Origin: Candidatus Nitrotoga sp. BS
GTDB taxonomy: Bacteria; Pseudomonadota; Gammaproteobacteria; Burkholderiales; Gallionellaceae
Length of the DNA stretch: 39,344 nucleotides
Assembly: GCF_927797785.1 (NCBI RefSeq)
Contig: NZ_CAKMLL010000115.1
Coordinates: forward strand, 1-39,344
Direction of reading: 5' to 3'
Below are positions 22,979 to 31,503 of this stretch, piece by piece; within the stretch, counting starts at the first letter, position 1, and every line of letters starts with the position of its first letter. Below the pieces are notes generated by a model that saw nothing but the letters and a program-made list of their open reading frames with translations, was not told the origin of the DNA and ran no database searches. Made by a program: the position numbers and the translations under genes.

Positions 22979-22984
22979 CCAAGC

Positions 22985-23180
22985 CTGCACCTTTTTTGAT
23001 GGCGCGATCCAAGGTATCTTTCGGCATAGAGGCTTTTTTGGCTTGCTCAACTACTAGACGCAAACATGAATTTGAGCCAATGTCAGCCCCGCCCTTTGCG
23101 GCCACCATGATTTCTTTGGCCAGCGAGCGTCTGCAAAGCAAGGGGCTGTAATTCGGCGATTTCTTGTCCCCGCACATCAC
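22985..23180 (-). pseudogene. YebC/PmpR-family fragment
   Basis: The minus-strand frame reads [18 protein letters not shown], then [19 protein letters not shown] and RAIKKGAG, the conserved N-terminal region of YebC/TACO1 translation-related factors. The first residues are out of frame and the rest of the ~240-residue protein is missing after KGAGL, where the solitary transposon end begins. Non-functional remnant. The remaining bases 22860-22947 and 23181-23291 hold nothing else supported. Confidence 0.7.
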
Positions 23181-23291
23181 TTAGCGATGTTGGATACCCC
23201 ATGCTGAGATGGTAATGCGTGGCTCGACTCCCCACACTTCGCCCACTGGGATGTATTGAATGATGCAGACTTAACATGCTAGGATGCCGTT

Positions 23292-23531
23292 ATGAAAAGA
23301 GCACTTGCCAATGCGCTTGAGAATAAAGCAAAGCCTGTGAAGGCAGGCGCGCGCGGGTCTGTGCATCTTGCAAAAATAGTAGCGGCAAATCCCTCTTACA
23401 GCAAAGCAGCTCGCCAAGCTGCTTTTAGCAAGGTGGCCAGCCAAATGCCTGTTGCGAAAGCCGTGTCTCAGGCGAAGCTCATTTCAAAGGTCAATCCTGC
23501 CGAATTCCGCATCGTTCGCATGCCTGGCTAA
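23292..23531 (+). CDS. small basic protein upstream of a nucleotidyltransferase
   Basis: 79 residues, Lys/Ala-rich, no signal peptide or membrane segment, family not recognised. AGGAT at 23281-23285 gives a well-placed ribosome site for ATG 23292. The stop lies 3 bases before the start of the next gene, so the two are almost certainly translated from one message. A small gene in front of a nucleotidyltransferase-fold gene is the layout of several toxin-antitoxin pairs, so an antitoxin-like role is possible, but nothing in its sequence proves it. Confidence 0.55.
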   Translation: MKRALANALENKAKPVKAGARGSVHLAKIVAANPSYSKAARQAAFSKVASQMPVAKAVSQAKLISKVNPAEFRIVRMPG

Positions 23532-23534
23532 ACT

Positions 23535-24308
23535 TTGGCTGCCGGTTATGATTGGTTTCAGCCGAGCGACCTACCAAAATTTTTCCACGCGCTCCAGAAG
23601 GCAACTCAGCCAGCCATCCTGGTTTGGGGGCAATCCCTGACATTCTGGGTCGATTATTTTAAAATCCCCGCACCCCCAAGTGACACGCCGTATCTCACGC
23701 AGGACGCTGATGTTTTAGCCACAAAGCATGATGCTCGAATCGTTGCAACAAAATTGCAATGGATACTCCGCATTCTGGAGCCGGACGACCATACGCCAAA
23801 CACAGCCATTGTTACTTACAAAACACCAGATGGACGCACGCTATTTATTGACTTCATTGGAACGTTGATCGGACTATCCAACGAAGAAATCAGAAAGCTC
23901 GCTGTCAAGCTTGAACACCCCGACTATGGATCTATACGCATTCTCCACCCGACCCTTGTTCTCAAAAGTCGCATCGTTAACCTGCATCGTCTATCCTCCA
24001 AGCGCGACACGAATGGCATTGAGCAAGCACATTTAGCCGTGTTGGTCGCTAAGGCATTTTTCGAACACTATGTCGCATCAGGATTCGCCGGTAAAAACCC
24101 CGACCGTTATCTGATAGATCGAGTTGTATGGCTGGAAAAACTAGCACTCTCAGATGCCGGAATGTTCGTTTTTACGCAATGGGGAATTGATGTCATGGGA
24201 GCTGCCCCGATAGAAACAATAACCAATAAAAATTTTCATGCCAAACATTGGCCTCGCCTTGATGCCCGAGTTCAATCCAAACGGGATCGCAAAAAAGCAG
24301 CAACTTGA
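23535..24308 (+). CDS. predicted nucleotidyltransferase-fold protein
   Basis: 257 residues. The features of the polymerase-beta-like nucleotidyltransferase fold are visible: a GQS turn (ILVWGQSLTFWVDYF), an Asp pair in LTQDADV, and a third acidic strand in RTLFIDFIGTLIGLS, followed by a helical part (NGIEQAHLAVLVAKAFF) and a basic tail. AbiEii and MNT-type toxins share this layout; other roles are possible. The start must be TTG 23535 (no ATG before the motif); it is coupled to the small upstream gene. The gene is followed 22 bp later by a broken helicase gene, which suggests this was once a longer operon. Confidence 0.6.
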   Translation: MAAGYDWFQPSDLPKFFHALQKATQPAILVWGQSLTFWVDYFKIPAPPSDTPYLTQDADVLATKHDARIVATKLQWILRILEPDDHTPNTAIVTYKTPDGRTLFIDFIGTLIGLSNEEIRKLAVKLEHPDYGSIRILHPTLVLKSRIVNLHRLSSKRDTNGIEQAHLAVLVAKAFFEHYVASGFAGKNPDRYLIDRVVWLEKLALSDAGMFVFTQWGIDVMGAAPIETITNKNFHAKHWPRLDARVQSKRDRKKAAT

Positions 24309-24330
24309 AAAAAGACGCAAGTGCAACGCC

Positions 24331-24546
24331 ATGACTGAAACGCTCCCACAAGACGATAATGATATTGATGATAGTGTAGACGATGAAATTTACGCATGTC
24401 TTCACCTCACTGAACCAAAGGTTTTTTTCTTTATGCTGGTGCTGGCTCTGGCAAAACGCGATCACTGGTGAATGCGATAAATCGTGTTCGTCGTGAATAT
24501 CAGAGGACGCTACTGCTTCAAGGGCAACACATAGCCGTGATTACCC
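24331..24546 (+). pseudogene. UvrD/Rep-type helicase, N-terminal fragment with frameshift
   Basis: ATG 24331 opens MTETLPQDDNDIDDSVDDEI and continues to EPKVFF. Adding one T to the T7 run near 24422-24428 gives FFLYAGAGSGKTRSLVNAI, the Walker A of superfamily 1 helicases, then REYQRTLLLQGQHIAVIT. The normal continuation (YTNAA...) is missing: from about 24546 the sequence is unrelated. So there is one homopolymer frameshift plus a 3' truncation. Helicases with this N-terminus occur in DNA repair and in defence modules; the fragment is too short to tell which. Confidence 0.75.
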
Positions 24547-24613
24547 AAAGAAATGGCGGCTTCTCGGCTAAAGCAACCGTTTACTGCCAGCAGAAAAGGA
24601 CGATCAATGAGCG

Positions 24614-25093
24614 TCAACCGCGTCGGGCCGCTTCGATCGCAGCGATGTCGATCTTTCCCATCTGCATCATCGCCTCGAAAGCGCGCTTGGCCGCCGCGCG
24701 ATCAGGATCGGCGATCGCTTCAATGAGGACGCGTGGCGTGATCTGCCACGACAGGCCCCACTTGTCCTTGCACCAGCCGCATTCGCTTTCCTGGCCGCCG
24801 TTTCCGACAATCGCGTTCCACAATCGGTCGGTTTCGGCTTGGTCGTCGGTCGCAACCTGGAAGGAAAAAGCCTCATTGTGCTTGAACTCCGGACCACCGT
24901 TCAGGCCGATACAAGGGATGCCAATCACGGTGAATTCGACCAGCAAGACGTTGCCCTGCTTGCCAGCGGGATAGTCACCTGGCGCGCGATGGATCGTTCC
25001 CACCGTGCTGTCCGGGAATGTTTCGGCATAGAACTGCGCGGCTTCTACTGCGGTGCCGTTGTACCAAAGACAAATCGTGTTCTTGCTGACCAC
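24614..25093 (-). CDS. VOC family protein (PhnB-like)
   Basis: 159-residue glyoxalase-fold protein of the PhnB / 3-demethylubiquinone-methyltransferase-like group of the vicinal oxygen chelate superfamily. Seen: ICLWYNGTAVEAAQFYAETF, GIPCIGLNGGPEFKHNEAFS, the CGWCKDKWGLSWQITP segment and a C-terminal MMQMGKIDIAAIEAA. GTG at 25093 is used because AGGAG lies 7 bases upstream; longer versions would read through that site. Members are mostly unassigned enzymes or binding proteins. Its GC is visibly higher than its neighbours, suggesting a separate arrival. Confidence 0.85.
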   Translation of the reverse strand: MVSKNTICLWYNGTAVEAAQFYAETFPDSTVGTIHRAPGDYPAGKQGNVLLVEFTVIGIPCIGLNGGPEFKHNEAFSFQVATDDQAETDRLWNAIVGNGGQESECGWCKDKWGLSWQITPRVLIEAIADPDRAAAKRAFEAMMQMGKIDIAAIEAARRG

Positions 25094-25544
25094 TTTAGTT
25101 CTCCTATGGGTGACCAATAAATAGTTTAAACCATGAAGACTGCCCGATTTCTTGGGCAATTGGCGTTCCTTAAGGTGACGCACTCGCGCGCTCTGCTTTC
25201 AACTGTGCGCCCATGTCTGTTCTCTTCTGTGATGGTTGATACAAAAATCGTTGAGGGCGCATCTTGCCTCAAGCGGCGTGGTGGTTCAACCCAGAATGGC
25301 CGATATTGCAAGACCTCGTCATTCCCGCGCAGGCAGGAATCCAGCGATTCTATTCAAATGCCTTTGGAAAAATCAATGGGAACAGATTCGATTGGTGGTT
25401 TTGTTTTTGACTTCCTCAGACCGTCGATGTGTTTGGGGCTTTATCGATCAATTCTGACCCCTACTGATTATCTTTGCAACATGTGCAATTTGCGGTGGGT
25501 ATTTGCATATGAATTCAAACACAACGGATCATATTGAGAGGAAT
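25094..25544. other. intergenic region upstream of the retron
   Basis: No supported gene; the long plus-strand frame through here lacks any family likeness and contains a dispersed repeat. It includes the dRS3-like repeat at 25321-25340. Confidence 0.4.
25321..25340. repeat. dRS3-like dispersed repeat
   Basis: ATTCCC, eight bases, AGGAAT: the neisserial dRS3 pattern ATTCCC-N8-GGGAAT with one mismatch. It is followed by CCAGCGATT, a common extension of such repeats. Confidence 0.6.
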
Positions 25545-25788
25545 CGTGATGGTGGTTCTGGTAATGTAGAAAATGGGCAACTAACACATTCTTATTGCAA
25601 TTCTACCTACAAACAATGAATTGCTTAAGAGACCAGCCGTTCTAGTGAGAGAACCCTAGGTGTACAAACTCTGCTATGCTTTAAAACGGCAACGGCATGA
25701 TGACCGGTCGCGGAAGATTTCCGTGGGTTTGAGTTCGAACCCGTACATTAAGACCTTACTATATCCATCACGTCGTTGCCGCCCATAT
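25545..25788 (+). ncRNA. candidate retron msr-msd RNA
   Basis: Hairpin-rich, non-coding-looking segment directly before the retron RT, where msr-msd lies in known retrons. Perfect complementary arms CGTGATGG (25545-25552) and CCATCACG (25765-25772) could act as a1/a2. Inside are GCAATTC/GAATTGC (25597-25624, 14-nt loop), GTTCT/AGAAC (25639-25654), palindrome GACCGGTC (25702-25709), CGGAA-GAT-TTCCG (25711-25723) and GGGTTTG-AGTT-CGAACCC (25725-25742). A second arm pair CGGCAACG/CGTTGCCG (25687-25694, 25774-25781) is an alternative closing stem. The exact boundaries and branch guanosine cannot be fixed by eye. Confidence 0.4.
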
Positions 25789-26769
25789 ATGACGATAGCG
25801 AAACTAAAAGAATTAAAATCCCTAGACGATGTCGCTCGTGCGTGCGGCGTCGAGTTCGACTTCATCGAGGCTTACTCGAGCAGCCAAAACCAGAAATCTT
25901 TCTTCAATGTGCTGAAATTGCCCAAGCATGGGCGGCGGCGCAAGGGCGAGTACCGAATTGTCTTCGAAGCGCGCGAACAGCGACTGGCTGCTTTTCATCG
26001 CTCCATATCGATGATTGTGACCAATAGCGCAGTCTTCGGCGAACATGTTCAAGGTTTTATGAAGAAGCGTTCTACTCGAACTAATGCGGAGAAGCACCTC
26101 GCTGCAAAGGTGCTGCTGCACGCTGACATCAAAGGGTTCTTTGATGCCATCACTACCGAGCAGGTTAGGAACGCTTTTGTAACAGAGGGGGCCGCTGTTC
26201 GCATGGCAGATGTGCTCGCTAAGGCATGCACCATCGACGGACTGCTACGGCAAGGCACGCGCTGTAGCCCAACCATCGCAAACTTGATCTGCTTTGACAT
26301 GGACCAGTCGTTCTTGCGTCTGGCACACTCGCACAACTGCGTCTATACACGGTACGCAGACGACCTGACTTTCTCAGGTGACCAAGTGCCTTCCGACGAC
26401 TCGGTAAAAGAAATTCTTGAAAGCCGAGGTTTCAAGCTTCGCGACGACCAGTGTTACCGCCAATACAGGGGGCGGAGCCAGTACGTGACCGGGCTGACCA
26501 TTGCCGATCCGAACCAGCCGAGGCTGCCAACAAGACTGAAGCGCCGTCTGCGGCTGATGATGTACTACATCGATAAGCACGGACTCGCCGACCACTGGAG
26601 GAAGGTAGGTGTCAATGATGTGATACAAGAGGAGGCTTGGCTTAGGGGAATGCTCAAGTACGCGGGCTCAATTGAGCCAAAGTTGGTTAACCAGTGGTGG
26701 CAAATTTTTGGCGAAGCGTGGTCTAATCGTACATCTTACGAGCCTATTCCCGGCAACGAGGAACACTAA
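25789..26769 (+). CDS. retron-type reverse transcriptase
   Basis: RNA-directed DNA polymerase of about 326 residues, a typical length for a stand-alone retron RT that makes msDNA. Counting from ATG 25789: the retron NAxxH motif (NAEKH) at ~99-103, catalytic Asp in LLHADIKGFFDAI at ~113, RQGTRCSPTIANLICFDMD (motif B region), the polymerase site YTRYADDLTFSG with YADD at ~189-192, and the retron-specific VTG in QYVTGLTIADP at ~233-235. Upstream in-frame codons to 25660 overlap the hairpin region and are probably not translated; no good ribosome site is seen at 25789. Its stop overlaps that of the convergent hydrolase by 3 bases. Retrons act as phage-defence units with an effector. Confidence 0.88.
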   Translation: MTIAKLKELKSLDDVARACGVEFDFIEAYSSSQNQKSFFNVLKLPKHGRRRKGEYRIVFEAREQRLAAFHRSISMIVTNSAVFGEHVQGFMKKRSTRTNAEKHLAAKVLLHADIKGFFDAITTEQVRNAFVTEGAAVRMADVLAKACTIDGLLRQGTRCSPTIANLICFDMDQSFLRLAHSHNCVYTRYADDLTFSGDQVPSDDSVKEILESRGFKLRDDQCYRQYRGRSQYVTGLTIADPNQPRLPTRLKRRLRLMMYYIDKHGLADHWRKVGVNDVIQEEAWLRGMLKYAGSIEPKLVNQWWQIFGEAWSNRTSYEPIPGNEEH

Positions 26770-28322
26770 GGCAGTGGGTTTGAATCTCGCTTATGCTTCT
26801 CGCCTGTGATCACGTTCTCGGCGTACCTGATGCGGGTGCGAAGGTTCTCAAACAGGTTGGCGGTCTCCGCATTTTCTGGCGCAGACAGATGCCGGGCGCA
26901 AGCCTGAGCTATCAGCGCAGCAAGTTCCTCTAGCACTGAATATTTATTAGTACCGGGCCGCGGAACATCGACGGCGCGATGATAAGCCGAAAGCACTGTT
27001 TCTGTGGCTAGCTTGAGGTAGGTAGGCATGTCGGCTAGGCGGGTGTGTACCTGCTCGAAGCGTTCGCCTTTCTTACTCAGCCGATGCACTAGCGGATCGA
27101 CGAAGAATTTGCTTATCCTTTCTTCTCGGGACAGCTTGTTGAACGCTTCCTTGGGGCCGTAGTACATGTAAGCTGAGAATGACATTACGGCCAGTTCGCG
27201 AAGTACTAATGCTCTCGTGCCTAGGTCCTCTACCAACTGTTGCAAAGATGTGCTCTGAGCACGCTTCTTTGCTGCTGCGTTGACCAAGGAGTCCTGCTGA
27301 ATCAACACTGGAATCTTCTGAAGTTGCTGACGCAAGCGGTCCGGTGCGTCAGTCACGAGATACACACTTGCGCAGACCGGTGCATCGGCATCGGCATCTA
27401 GGTACACCCCAAATGTTGAGAGGGCTAAATGCACTGAGGTATCGGCTCTGTGCTCCGGCGATACAGCCTCGATGTTCTCTGAAGGAAGTGGGTGCGAAGC
27501 TTTTATGATCGCTTTCGTAGGTAGCGAGGTGGCCGCTTCCACCTCGCGGATGAACGCAATAAGTGATGCGTGAATTGCCGCACTGCGGTCTTTCGGCTTG
27601 CAAATCGTAATGTGGTCGGCCTCAATAGGAATGCCGACTTCTCCGGGGATGTGCGCCCAAGAACTCATAGGCGAAACGATAGTCACGCCCGGTAACAATC
27701 GTCCTCCCAACCACCACGGTAACCTGACGGGCTGGGTTTCCATGAAGATGCGCGTCTTGAAGCCAAGGTCTGTGCGCAGATTCAAAAAGTACTGGTTCAG
27801 GACCTCCAAGTGTGAGTCGTCCAAACGTAGGTCGCTCACCTGCGGGTTCGCTCTCATGAGATGAGCCCAAGCCACGATCGTAGCCAGCTTCGAGCCGAAG
27901 TGCGGCGTACCCACAAACGCGATTCCCTTGATGTTGCGGGCAAGTTCCTTATGGCGTTCGACATCCCGCGACATCCCTTGCTGCAAAGCAGTCTTTATGA
28001 CCAACCCGCCGAGGCTGTGCCCTATTAGGATAAGCGGCCCGCCTAAGAGCTTGGGTTCGTTGCTTAGGCGCTCTAAGACTGCGGTCGCCTGTCGGGAAAG
28101 CGCCATGGCATCTGCCTTCCAGCGGGTCATTGCCGCGCCATATCCTAGCAGCCACACTGGACAGCCAGTATCCTCGCCGACCCATCGTGGCCAGAGTGTG
28201 CTCTTGTCCTCAGGGTCTGCCATCCAGGTCTTGCGAATGTCTCCGTCTAATCCATGGATAAAGACAAGTCGCGGCTTACCAGTGGTCTTCAACGGCTCGT
28301 GTATAGAAATTAGGTTCGCCAT
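26766..28322 (-). CDS. SERAC1/PGAP1-like alpha/beta hydrolase with C-terminal extension
   Basis: 518-residue predicted serine hydrolase. The N-terminal half has LVFIHGLDGDIRKTWM (oxyanion loop), the nucleophile elbow LIGHSLGGLVIKTAL and GIAFVGTPHFGSKLA, the pattern of SERAC1/DUF676 lipase-like proteins. The second half (from about residue 280) is helical and of no family I recognise; it may sense or bind a partner. No signal peptide or membrane segment. ATG 28322 follows a GAGAG-type ribosome site; a TTG at 28361 is weaker. It converges on the retron RT and their stops overlap, so they were probably acquired together. Lipases of this fold could act as membrane-damaging effectors, which is inference. 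Confidence 0.75.
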   Translation of the reverse strand: MANLISIHEPLKTTGKPRLVFIHGLDGDIRKTWMADPEDKSTLWPRWVGEDTGCPVWLLGYGAAMTRWKADAMALSRQATAVLERLSNEPKLLGGPLILIGHSLGGLVIKTALQQGMSRDVERHKELARNIKGIAFVGTPHFGSKLATIVAWAHLMRANPQVSDLRLDDSHLEVLNQYFLNLRTDLGFKTRIFMETQPVRLPWWLGGRLLPGVTIVSPMSSWAHIPGEVGIPIEADHITICKPKDRSAAIHASLIAFIREVEAATSLPTKAIIKASHPLPSENIEAVSPEHRADTSVHLALSTFGVYLDADADAPVCASVYLVTDAPDRLRQQLQKIPVLIQQDSLVNAAAKKRAQSTSLQQLVEDLGTRALVLRELAVMSFSAYMYYGPKEAFNKLSREERISKFFVDPLVHRLSKKGERFEQVHTRLADMPTYLKLATETVLSAYHRAVDVPRPGTNKYSVLEELAALIAQACARHLSAPENAETANLFENLRTRIRYAENVITGEKHKRDSNPLP

Positions 28323-28669
28323 ACTTTTCTCTCGCTTTGAACACCAGTTTATCTGGCTCAATTTGCTAACATTCTAAGGCTAGCATGATTTGCACCGGCC
28401 CATGGCAAACGTAACTGAGCTTTAGCGAATTAGGCGACGTCGTGTTGTACCGATTAGTATTTTTCAGCATCGGTTTTTTCAGTGTATCTGAAAACAATCT
28501 GCTTATTGGTGGTATGAACTATCACTACGTTGTCTTAATGCATTGCCACTTGATTGATTCTCTTTGGTCTAACGGTCGTTTCTTGTCGAAAGTGACTATT
28601 CGGAAAAAAATGAAAGCGGGCATCCAAGCAGGCTGCACCGACAGGAAATTGCCACAGACCGCTCAGGCC
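28323..28669. other. intergenic region, no clear gene
   Basis: It presumably carries the promoter of the hydrolase gene (reading left). A plus-strand frame from GTG 28442 to 28705 (87 codons) has no family likeness, and its end runs into the terminator of the opposite strand, so I do not call it. Confidence 0.35.
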
Positions 28670-28711
28670 AAAAAGCCGACTAACGATAATACTGATTCTC
28701 GTTAGTCAGCT
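28670..28711 (-). terminator. rho-independent terminator of the metE operon
   Basis: On the minus strand: GACTAACGA, a 12-nt loop, TCGTTAGTC, then GGCTTTTT. The 9-bp stem is perfect and extends by AAGC/GCTT across one mismatch. It lies about 185 bp after the folB-like stop. Confidence 0.8.
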
Positions 28712-28780
28712 TTATCCATTTACATCAACAGTAAACGGTGCATAGGTATGTAAATAGGTTGATTAAAAGGCCTGCGCCTC

Positions 28781-28838
28781 GGGGGGTGTCATCCTGTGGA
28801 GCAGGAATTCTTCACGGCACGCTGCGAGATCACCCCCC
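28781..28838. repeat. GGGGGGTG / CACCCCCC inverted repeat
   Basis: Perfect 8-bp arms at 28781-28788 and 28831-28838 with 42 bp between, inside the trailer of the metE operon message. Function unknown. Confidence 0.5.
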
Positions 28839-28886
28839 ACTGTTTGATCTGATAGTCGATCCATTGGCGTTGCAGGATGAATACTT

Positions 28887-28934
28887 CATACGCATTATGC
28901 AGCTCGCTTTTCCGCGTCCCGCATAATGCGTATG
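28887..28934 (-). repeat. 14-bp perfect inverted repeat over the folB-like stop
   Basis: CATACGCATTATGC (28887-28900) and GCATAATGCGTATG (28921-28934) are exact complements with a 20-nt loop. On the minus strand the hairpin covers the last codons and the TAA of the folB-like gene. There is no U-run behind it, so it is more likely an mRNA-stabilising or pausing hairpin than a terminator. Confidence 0.7.
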
Positions 28935-29236
28935 CCGACGCGCGCCAGATCGCCTAATGCACCAGGTTTTTCGATGCCGACTACGACCCGGCTGCAATGC
29001 CATTCGGTTAACATGCGCTGGGCAACGTGCTCTGCTAAAGCTTCCAGCAATCGATAGCGACAGGGTGCAAGCCAATCGGCAAGCTGCCGCTCGATAAGAG
29101 TACGTGTCAGGCCAAGCGGGTGTACGCTTTCTAGTCGCAAATCGAAAACGAGCGGACGTGAGGCTGCCCGTTCCCATTCGTACACGCCGATGACGGTATA
29201 CAACGTAATTCCATCATGTGCGAGCGTTTGCGCCAT
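28895..29236 (-). CDS. dihydroneopterin aldolase-like protein (FolB/FolX family), shortened
   Basis: 113 residues of the T-fold DHNA family, which acts in folate synthesis. Seen: ITLYTVIGVYEWERAASRPLVFDL with the pterin-site Glu region near the start, LLEALAEHVAQRML, and GIEKPGALGDLARVGIRI with the catalytic Lys. The segment that normally follows the first strands (the D.L.Y loop with the active-site Tyr) is missing, and no frameshift explains it. ATG 29236 shares its A with the metE stop (TGATG), so it is translationally coupled to metE. It may be inactive as an aldolase or have a different role. Longer upstream starts would read inside metE. Confidence 0.65.
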   Translation of the reverse strand: MAQTLAHDGITLYTVIGVYEWERAASRPLVFDLRLESVHPLGLTRTLIERQLADWLAPCRYRLLEALAEHVAQRMLTEWHCSRVVVGIEKPGALGDLARVGIRIMRDAEKRAA

Positions 29237-31503
29237 CAGGCTGCGGTGTTGCGCAGTGCATGCGCTACAGTAACCATGTTGCGCAGAGCCGATTCCACTT
29301 CCGGCCATCCGCGTGTTTTTAATCCACAGTCTGGGTTAACCCACAAACGCTCTCGCGGAATAACAGCACATGCTTTGCGCAACAGACGCAGCATTTCTTC
29401 CTGACTCGGCACACGCGGTGAATGGATGTCGTACACGCCTGGACCGATATCGTTCGGGTAGTGGAAGGCTCGGAAGGCTTCCAGCAGTTCCATATCCGAG
29501 CGCGATGTTTCTATCGTAATTACATCTGCATCCATCGCGGCGATGGCAGGCAAAATGTCGTTGAATTCTGAATAGCACATGTGCGTGTGAATTTGTGTGG
29601 TATCTCGCACGCCGCTGGTACTGATGTGGAAAGCTCGCACTGCCCAGTCGAGGTAATGCGCCCAGTCCTGCCGTTTGATCGGCAAGCCTTCGCGTAAGGC
29701 GGCTTCGTCAATCTGAATGATGCCAATGCCCGCCCGCTCCAAATCCTGTACTTCGGCGCGAATCGCCAGCGCGATTTGCAGGGCGGTAGCAGCGCGAGGA
29801 ATATCGTTGCGCACGAATGACCATTGCAGAATGGTGATGGGTCCGGTGAGCATTCCTTTCATCGGTTTGTCGGTCAGGCTTTGCGCGTAGCAACTCCATT
29901 CGACGGTCATTGGGTGCGGGCGTGAAATGTCGCCATAGATGATAGGGGGTTTTACGCAGCGCGAGCCGTAGCTTTGTACCCAGCCGTATTGCGTAAAAGC
30001 AAAGCCTTTCAGTTGTTCGCCAAAGTATTCCACCATGTCGTTGCGTTCGGCCTCTCCATGCACCAGCACGTCGATCCCCAGTTCTTCCTGCTTGGCCACT
30101 ACATCGCGGATTTCTGCCTGCATTGCCGTGCGATATTGCTCCTCGCTTAGTTTGCCTTGCTTGTAGCTCGCGCGAGCATTGCGGATGGCTGCGGTTTGGG
30201 GGAAAGAGCCGATGGTAGTGGTCGGGAAAGCAGGCAGCTTGAATTGTGCTTGCTGTGCAGCGATGCGCTGGGCAAACGGCGTAGAGCGTTTTTCATCGGC
30301 AGATTTCAGGGCTGCAACACGCTGATGCACTTCACGATCATGTCGCAGCGGCGAGTACACGCGGCTTTCCAATGCAGCATTGGCTTTTGCCAATTGAGGC
30401 GCGATGGAATCCTTGCCGTGCGATACACCGTGCGCCAGGGTGGCAACCTCCTCAAGCTTTTGTGTGGCGAATGCCATCCAACTTTTGACGGTTTTATCCA
30501 GTCCGGTTTCTTGTGCTAAATCCACCGGCACATGCAACAGGGAACAACTGGGTGCAACCCATAGTCGATCTCCCAGTATTGCGCGCAATTCTTCGAGGAG
30601 TGCTAAAGAAGCAGGCAAGTTGTTGAGCCAGATATTACGGCCATCTACAATACCTGCAGAAAGGATTTTATCTGCCGGGAAATTGCGGATAAAGGGTTCA
30701 GCTTGCTGCGGAGCGCGCACCAAGTCGATGTGCAGGCCGGCAACCGGCAAGGCTTTTAGCGCTTCAGCATGGTCTTCCACGCTGTCGAAATAGGTGGCGA
30801 GCAGAATTTTGGGGGCGTCCTGCGACAGGCTGGCGTAGGTGTGAGCGAGTGCTGCCACCCATTCCTGCGGTAAATCGAGTGCCAGCACAGGCTCGTCAAT
30901 TTGCACCCACTCCACGTCTTGCGCTTTCAGGCGCTCCAGAATTTGCTTGTACACCGGAATTAGTTTGGGCAATAAATTCAGGCGGTTCAACCCGGCGTGT
31001 TTTTCTTTACCCAGATACAGGTAGGTGAGCGGGCCAATTAAGACCGGCTTGGCGTTGATCCCCAGTGCCTGCGCTTCACCTACTTCATCGAATAGACATG
31101 TGCTATTCAGGTGGAACTCGGCGGAATTCAGGAATTCCGGGACGAGATAGTGATAGTTGGTGTCGAACCATTTAGTCATTTCCATGGCGGGCTGTTGTGC
31201 ATTGCTGCGCGCAAGCTGGAAATATTGTTCTAGTGTTGATGAACCTGTAAAACCGAATCGTTCGGGCGCAGCACCCAAGAGGACGGTCATATTCAACATT
31301 TGGTCGTACCATGCGAAATCCCCAGCCGGAATCAAAGTAATGCCCGCATCGCGCTGCACCGCCCAGTGCCGCGCTCGTAATTCTTTGCCGATGGCGAGCA
31401 GGGATGCTTCGTCCAATTGGCCATTCCAATATGATTCCAAAGCCTTTTTGAGTTCGCGTTGCGCGCCGATGCGTGGAAAGCCAAGATTGTGTGTAATCGC
31501 CAT
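29236..31503 (-). CDS. metE: cobalamin-independent methionine synthase
   Basis: Transfers the methyl group from 5-methyltetrahydropteroyl-triglutamate to homocysteine, the last step of methionine synthesis without B12. 755 residues, matching the family (E. coli 753). It begins [20 protein letters not shown]. The zinc site is visible in [13 protein letters not shown] and [12 protein letters not shown], and [20 protein letters not shown] is the C-terminal barrel signature. CGGAGGAT is a good ribosome site before ATG 31503. Divergent from metR with a 93-bp gap, the classical MetR-controlled layout; no cobalamin riboswitch fits in that gap. Confidence 0.96.

Follow-up and report, generated by a model that had tools for sequence, protein, structure and literature searches.

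What kind of system is formed when a reverse transcriptase (RT) gene meets, tail to tail, the gene of a lipase-like hydrolase? This question is raised by the locus at positions 25545..28322 of a 39,344-nucleotide (nt) stretch of Candidatus Nitrotoga sp. BS (assembly GCF_927797785.1, contig NZ_CAKMLL010000115.1), which at its whole length is called the window below. We propose, with a probability of roughly 0.6, that the locus is a tripartite type VIII retron, i.e., an abortive phage-defence cassette in which the hydrolase would be held inactive by the RT and its multicopy single-stranded DNA (msDNA). The computed support for this proposal consists of family membership, domain make-up, the position of the genes in one cassette at a defence hotspot, kinship of the RT to type VII retrons and, in common with these, a hairpin 5' of its gene.

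Two proteins matching retron type VIII

Both genes are intact and convergent, and their stop codons overlap (TAA of the RT gene at 26767-26769; TAG of the hydrolase gene at 26766-26768 on the minus strand). The RT open reading frame (ORF) spans 25660-26769 from a GTG codon, yet translation probably begins at the ATG at 25789, because the alignment to the type VIII RT profile sets in there, at residue 1; this gives a protein of 326 amino acids (aa; 25789..26769, plus strand). The hydrolase gene occupies 26766..28322 on the minus strand (518 aa and stop). Position 25545, from which the locus had been counted in a preliminary description of this DNA, falls inside the probable non-coding RNA (ncRNA) region and is not a gene start. 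The retron hallmarks NAEKH, YADD and VTG that this description had read in the RT were located at 26083-26097, 26353-26364 and 26485-26493, respectively, and the 518-residue length of the hydrolase, its GHSLGG motif (residues 101-106) and the convergent layout were likewise found as described. The RT is also matched by the Pfam family RVT_1 (6e-14).

The earlier view that the locus is a retron is borne out by the PADLOC profiles, among which the type VIII ones gave the best match to each protein over nearly its full length. RT_VIII scores 564.9 bits over residues 1-317 of the 326 of the RT, i.e., 326 bits ahead of the next profile, VII-A1 (238.5 bits), and DUF626_VIII scores 581.5 bits against the hydrolase, residues 7-517 of which align with profile positions 1-474 of 474. 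We take both frames to be real genes because these scores far exceed chance. As judged from sequence, the RT and the hydrolase make up the protein pair of retron type VIII. The preliminary description had known of no retron type with a convergent hydrolase; the pair is, however, already known to PADLOC, which holds profiles for both members. The typing of type VIII reportedly comes from Mestre et al. 2020, and the two profiles were presumably defined from neighbouring genes.

Kinship with type VII retrons

In a tree of 17 RTs confined to six VII-A1, three VII-A2, three III-A, one II-A and three untyped rows and the window, the window RT is nested among type VII RTs: it pairs with the RT of locus L118 (95/94) inside a set of ten type VII and VIII rows (99/98). 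No type VII profile is the best match of the window RT, though the tree puts it within the type VII set. The L118 RT itself is matched best by VII-A2 (286.5 bits; RT_VIII, 252.6 bits). L118 and a second locus, L205, which carries a DUF3800 gene, are both found in genome G1221, each apparently at a contig end, and this is consistent with one broken locus.

For the helical second half of the hydrolase (residues 305-518; 26769..27410, minus strand), left unassigned in the preliminary description, we find a probable identity: a degenerate form of DUF3800, the domain with an RNase H fold that accompanies the RT in type VII retrons. This assignment is derived from profile, hhalign and alignment. Against type VII DUF3800, the C-terminal half scores 14.9 bits, which none of 2000 shuffles reached, and it is the best non-member among 1524 ORFs; hhalign aligns it colinearly with DUF3800 (E 2.6e-4), and in the reverse search the PADLOC DUF626_VIII profile matches the DUF3800 protein of L205 (E 1.6e-4). 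Since the RT pairs with L118, the C-terminal half resembles the DUF3800 of L205 and both loci lie in G1221, we consider the two parts of the window pair as evidence for the same type VII ancestor. In VII-A1 and VII-A2 retrons, DUF3800 is fused to the RT or encoded by a separate gene; the window differs by an alpha/beta hydrolase added ahead of the DUF3800-like part, with the gene separate and convergent.

The domain also differs at its active site, where the window protein has D309, A310, E423 and E465, as opposed to the D,E,E,D set present in 7/7 type VII rows; the set is thus reduced to D,A,E,E, and the intact form of the type VII partner is not found in the window protein. Three acidic positions are left, and this would suit an explanation in which the DUF3800-like half has kept an RNase H-type nuclease activity, used to process or destroy the template of the msDNA, the hydrolase being the regulated effector or a regulatory part. 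An RNase H fold in a retron protein is suggestive because, according to PMC8989520, retron RTs typically come without RNase H and termination of the RT-DNA depends on host RNase H1. Yet, the E of the DE motif has become A310 and one D has become E465, and we regard this explanation as unlikely.

A further likeness to type VII retrons was found in the region just 5' of the RT gene, where we predict a candidate retron ncRNA (25543..25796, plus strand) from the single-sequence fold of 25540-25800 and an inverted repeat. The fold has a z of -2.78, with 0/200 shuffles folding as well, and a 16-nt, 88% inverted repeat encloses a long hairpin, accompanied by two small ones. The predicted parts, all on the plus strand, are a1 (25543-25555), two msr-like hairpins (25597-25624 and 25639-25654), an msd-like hairpin (25687-25781) and a2 (25783-25796). 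Rfam gave 3 matches at E <= 5 between 22800 and 29500, none of them a retron RNA, and a scan for promoters and terminators gave no more than chance.

Inside the long hairpin lies a 9-bp hairpin with the loop AGUU (25723..25744, plus strand), the sole one of its kind on the plus strand of the window and of a form common to type VII retron loci. AGU(U) hairpins occur at most of the VII-A1 and VII-A2 loci examined, namely in 7/9 type VII regions: they are placed 5' of the RT in six (L115, L116, L117, L120, L032 and L033) and 3' of the DUF3800 gene in L205, and were not found in L118 and L119. In turn, among controls, which are mostly untyped, they were present in 0/72 other RT loci and 3/136 distinct viral RT loci (3/208 together). 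The resulting Fisher p of 6.5e-11 for 8/10 type VII/VIII loci, the window included, versus 3/208 overstates the case: the pattern was written only after the hairpin had been seen by eye in the folds, so the counts are not blind, and the loci are evolutionarily related. The five VII-A1 rows in particular are closely related, so that the base-pair changes in the hairpin represent few events, and hairpins selected for pairing necessarily show it. The cleanest, and only quasi-independent, support comes from L033, which was positive in a stretch not previously inspected.

The hydrolase domain in and outside retrons

The N-terminal part of the hydrolase (residues 1-265; 27528..28322, minus strand) is an alpha/beta-hydrolase domain of the DUF676/SERAC1-like kind, as indicated by Pfam, alignment, an AlphaFold2 model and profile matches in the PDB. 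The Pfam matches are Abhydrolase_6 (6e-6) and DUF676 (3e-4), each only about 1 bit over the curated cut-off. S103 within GHSLGG, E195 and H237 are invariant in a 10-row alignment of the domain and, standing in the usual order, make a plausible candidate triad. The AlphaFold2 model, built with 5 rows, has a predicted local distance difference test (pLDDT) score per ten residues of 72-92 over residues 1-140 except 61-70, is lower over 141-240 and is again confident over 241-260. With the whole model, Foldseek retrieves thioesterases, esterases and lipases at low template modelling scores (TM-scores) by model length, the top match being palmitoyl-protein thioesterase 1 (E 7e-5, TM-score 0.27 by model length). 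In the PDB, a profile of ten hydrolase-domain sequences retrieved BlEst2 (2e-8) along with several triacylglycerol lipases; by profile, lipases are the nearest solved relatives.

We found that the hydrolase domain alone also occurs without an RT, in other defence contexts. In the type II-A-like retron L034 (1453-3695; genome G866), the effector gene resembles that of the window in having a SERAC1/DUF676-like domain, which is here N-terminal to an NDT_II-A-like domain; it differs in this fusion and in that the gene is co-directional with the RT_II-A gene, lying upstream of it and overlapping it. L034 may be an undescribed effector fusion. In the ABC-three component loci L199 and L213, the domain is combined with CTD9 and encoded beside middle component 5 (MC5), and in L211 and L214 it belongs to annotated ABC-three component proteins, again beside MC5; on a Vibrio plasmid (L212), it forms the N-terminus of a PD-Lambda-4-like protein. 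Plasmid members of these proteins are 26-32% identical to the domain of the window; they differ in being coupled to ATPases or other parts, with no RT seen on the stretches read. The partners of an ABC-three component system were not found at the window locus: its hydrolase has no CTD domain according to Pfam, and between 25660 and 31503 the neighbouring long ORFs encode RT, FolB and MetE, the last two named by eye, none of them a middle component.

Some further candidates were rejected. L197 and L198, with DUF626_VIII scores of 81 and 75 bits, are not accepted as hydrolase fusions, having no Pfam hydrolase at E <= 0.01, and L198 does not align as a hydrolase. Given such scores on proteins without a Pfam hydrolase, the DUF626_VIII profile may mix two families. 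Two long ORFs with the domain (L195 and L196) were likewise not taken for defence systems, since neither showed a partner domain scoring above its cut-off.

The recurrence of the domain in other defence modules, by analogy, places it among effectors. PMC4986451 also names SesB-like alpha/beta hydrolases among the effector domains found at the N-terminus of fungal NLRs. Both points argue against an explanation in which the hydrolase is a trigger or sensor, e.g., as a thioesterase or deacylase whose target is a lipid-linked factor of the host, and the RT-msDNA itself arrests the cell. The thioesterase at the top of the Foldseek list fits such a role, and the substrate of a hydrolase is unpredictable from sequence; still, with the domain occupying the effector position elsewhere, we hold a sensor to be quite unlikely. 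The preliminary description had already considered the hydrolase as an effector, and this part of it stands, the hydrolase being the likely effector; its link to the RT, then drawn from adjacency only, now includes type-specific profiles for both proteins and their place in one cassette at a defence hotspot.

Sequence searches indicate that the type VIII system is rare. The hydrolase profile gave no other full-length match in 369 genomes of the class, 398 of the phylum, 399 of the order and 145 of the Myxococcus order (E limits 1e-20, 1e-20, 1e-15 and 1e-15; the first three sets include the genome of the window, and sets may overlap), with 0/145 for the Myxococcus order; partial matches numbered 1 in the phylum and 5 in the order genomes. 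At loci retrieved with the RT, flanks of 1.5 to 6 kb, some of which end at contig ends, contained no ORF with a match to the hydrolase at E <= 1e-3. A tblastn search with the RT returned 2 plasmid records, where the RTs are fused to a DUF3800 domain, and none in phages (E limit 1e-30), nor did single-protein viral scans yield any. Two further viral scans, judged from match tables without per-row typing, brought no new type VII/VIII locus beyond one contig (L035/L242/L321). A search of the phylum for fresh type VII-A1 loci gave 0/398, and blastn against E. coli genomes gave no match. In a scan of genome contigs (589 stretches), there was no close relative among the matches listed, an absence that weighs little. 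In open-access literature, to which most subscription papers do not belong, we found no report on type VIII or on DUF676/DUF626/DUF3800 retrons; one paper mentioning 'type VIII' was rejected, as the term denotes a toxin-antitoxin type there.

At a contig end of Myxococcus vastator (L142, 1-1761), an RT fragment is nearly tied between RT_VIII (153.5 bits) and VII-A1 (149.4 bits). The fragment is followed by an unidentified ORF (1075-1761), with no relative of the hydrolase on the retrieved stretch.

A probable defence hotspot and a putative mode of action

The genetic context of the pair was compared within the genus by a search with the FolB-like protein encoded next to it (28895-29308, minus strand), which had matches in 18/19 genomes, the window's own included. 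We used the 7 other genomes with a near full-length, close FolB; G009 (partial match), 9 genomes with distant matches and 1 with none were excluded. Comparison of the window with these 7 stretches by blastn delimits a variable cassette of ~3.2 kb at approximately 25473..28656. A conserved right block begins at 28657-28892 in 7/7 relatives, and the left conserved block meets foreign cargo at 25444-25472 in 4/7 (G005, G007, G015 and G017). The left side has been rearranged in two relatives, G002 and G008, where the cargo abuts DNA equal to window positions 25200 and 23613, respectively, with a copy of block 25194-25460 or 25194-25390 further left; the G006 stretch begins at a contig end, and the left block lies beyond it. 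Between the blocks, the ncRNA region and the RT and hydrolase genes are all that was recognized in the window.

At the same site, 5/7 relatives carry matches to known defence families in PADLOC: PD-Lambda-2 B and C in G007 (620 and 430 bits), a 632-aa ORF covering about half of the Tmn profile in G002 (280 bits), Drt8 with an RT-associated PD-DExK protein in G017 (497 and 240 bits), an MmeI-like type IIG enzyme in G015 (881 bits) and a CBASS cyclase with a 2TM effector in G006 (420 and 240 bits). This makes the site beside folB/metE a probable defence-gene hotspot in this genus. The RT and hydrolase genes look like one exchanged unit, because relatives carry other defence cargo between the same blocks. 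That the two are unrelated neighbours joined in the hotspot, as convergent orientation, the piling up of cargo at hotspots and the want of a second locus with the pair might suggest, is highly improbable, given that both genes match profiles named for type VIII and that the C-terminal half of the hydrolase is similar to the partner that accompanies the closest relatives of the RT.

Around the left edge of the cassette, the block 25194-25472 is repeat-like, with copies in L235, L236 and L239-L241. The stretches of G007 and G002 have it twice, and the block 22980-23124 is followed within ~50 nt by a copy in five relatives. This block may be involved in cargo exchange. At 25320-25342 we noticed by eye CATTCCCGCGCAGGCAGGAATCC, an imperfect palindrome resembling an interspersed repeat. 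Further left, a second variable slot (23125-25193) is largely missing in G005 and G017, and G007 and G002 have similar DNA; in the window it contains the gene of a 3-dmu-9_3-mt (PF06983) protein and a 257-aa ORF (TTG start) that neither Pfam nor PADLOC matches.

In known retrons, as stated in PMC12548924, the RT, RNA and RT-DNA hold an effector until phage infection. For the type VIII retron proposed here, we infer msDNA synthesis, neutralisation, trigger and substrate along the same lines. The RT would copy part of the ncRNA encoded just 5' of its gene into msDNA. The convergently encoded effector would combine an esterase/lipase-like alpha/beta hydrolase with a degenerate DUF3800 inherited from a type VII retron, and its RNase H-like half would bind either the RT or the RNA-DNA portion of the msDNA, so that the docked hydrolase is kept inactive. 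Once a phage factor had damaged or altered the msDNA, the hydrolase would be free and might then attack membrane lipids or another ester substrate and halt the infected cell.

Several points weigh against this proposal. Convergent genes cannot share a single operon transcript and are unusual among retrons, and our searches turned up no other complete type VIII locus with which the pair and its convergent order could be compared. The ncRNA fold is that of a single sequence, in which a2 overlaps the start codon of the RT gene; in the longer fold of 25473-25800 the three hairpins are retained but the a1/a2 pairing is lost. As for the DUF3800-like assignment, the hhalign probability is only 43%, and the reverse DUF626_VIII match was obtained for only 1/9 DUF3800 domains. 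The model of the C-terminal half used in structure comparison was built with DUF3800 rows; Foldseek gave nothing significant with it (E >= 0.25 only), and VIA-align against the listed families gave Z < 8, which by the tool's note is possibly a mere common arrangement. Modelled without DUF3800 rows, this half has a pLDDT < 50 almost everywhere. At the hotspot, the G005 site holds a GMC-oxidoreductase/sugar-hydrolase-type ORF and two further ORFs without a PADLOC match, and at the G008 site neither of the two longer ORFs checked has one, only longer ORFs being covered.

How the decayed domain might serve such an effector can be proposed only tentatively. The type VII DUF3800 may process or read an RNA-DNA hybrid, and its decayed type VIII copy may only bind the hybrid, tying the lipase to msDNA. 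It is conceivable, if doubtful, that type VIII arose from type VII by fusion of a SERAC1/SesB-like lipase to DUF3800 with decay of the active site, and that the dead RNase H acts as an msDNA-hybrid antenna, so that loss or change of the hybrid would release a membrane-attacking lipase. If true, this would be, to our knowledge, the first retron effector tethered via a dead RNase H.

New here is evidence for a type VII origin of the system, for the domain assignment of the C-terminal half, for the AGU(U) hairpin, for the hotspot setting and for the hydrolase domain in other defence proteins. The folB-side hotspot is a place to seek more defence systems in this genus. Type VIII may be so far untested, and the domain and tree evidence bears on how a retron effector is kept inactive; if the proposal is true, a lipase would join the list of retron killing mechanisms.

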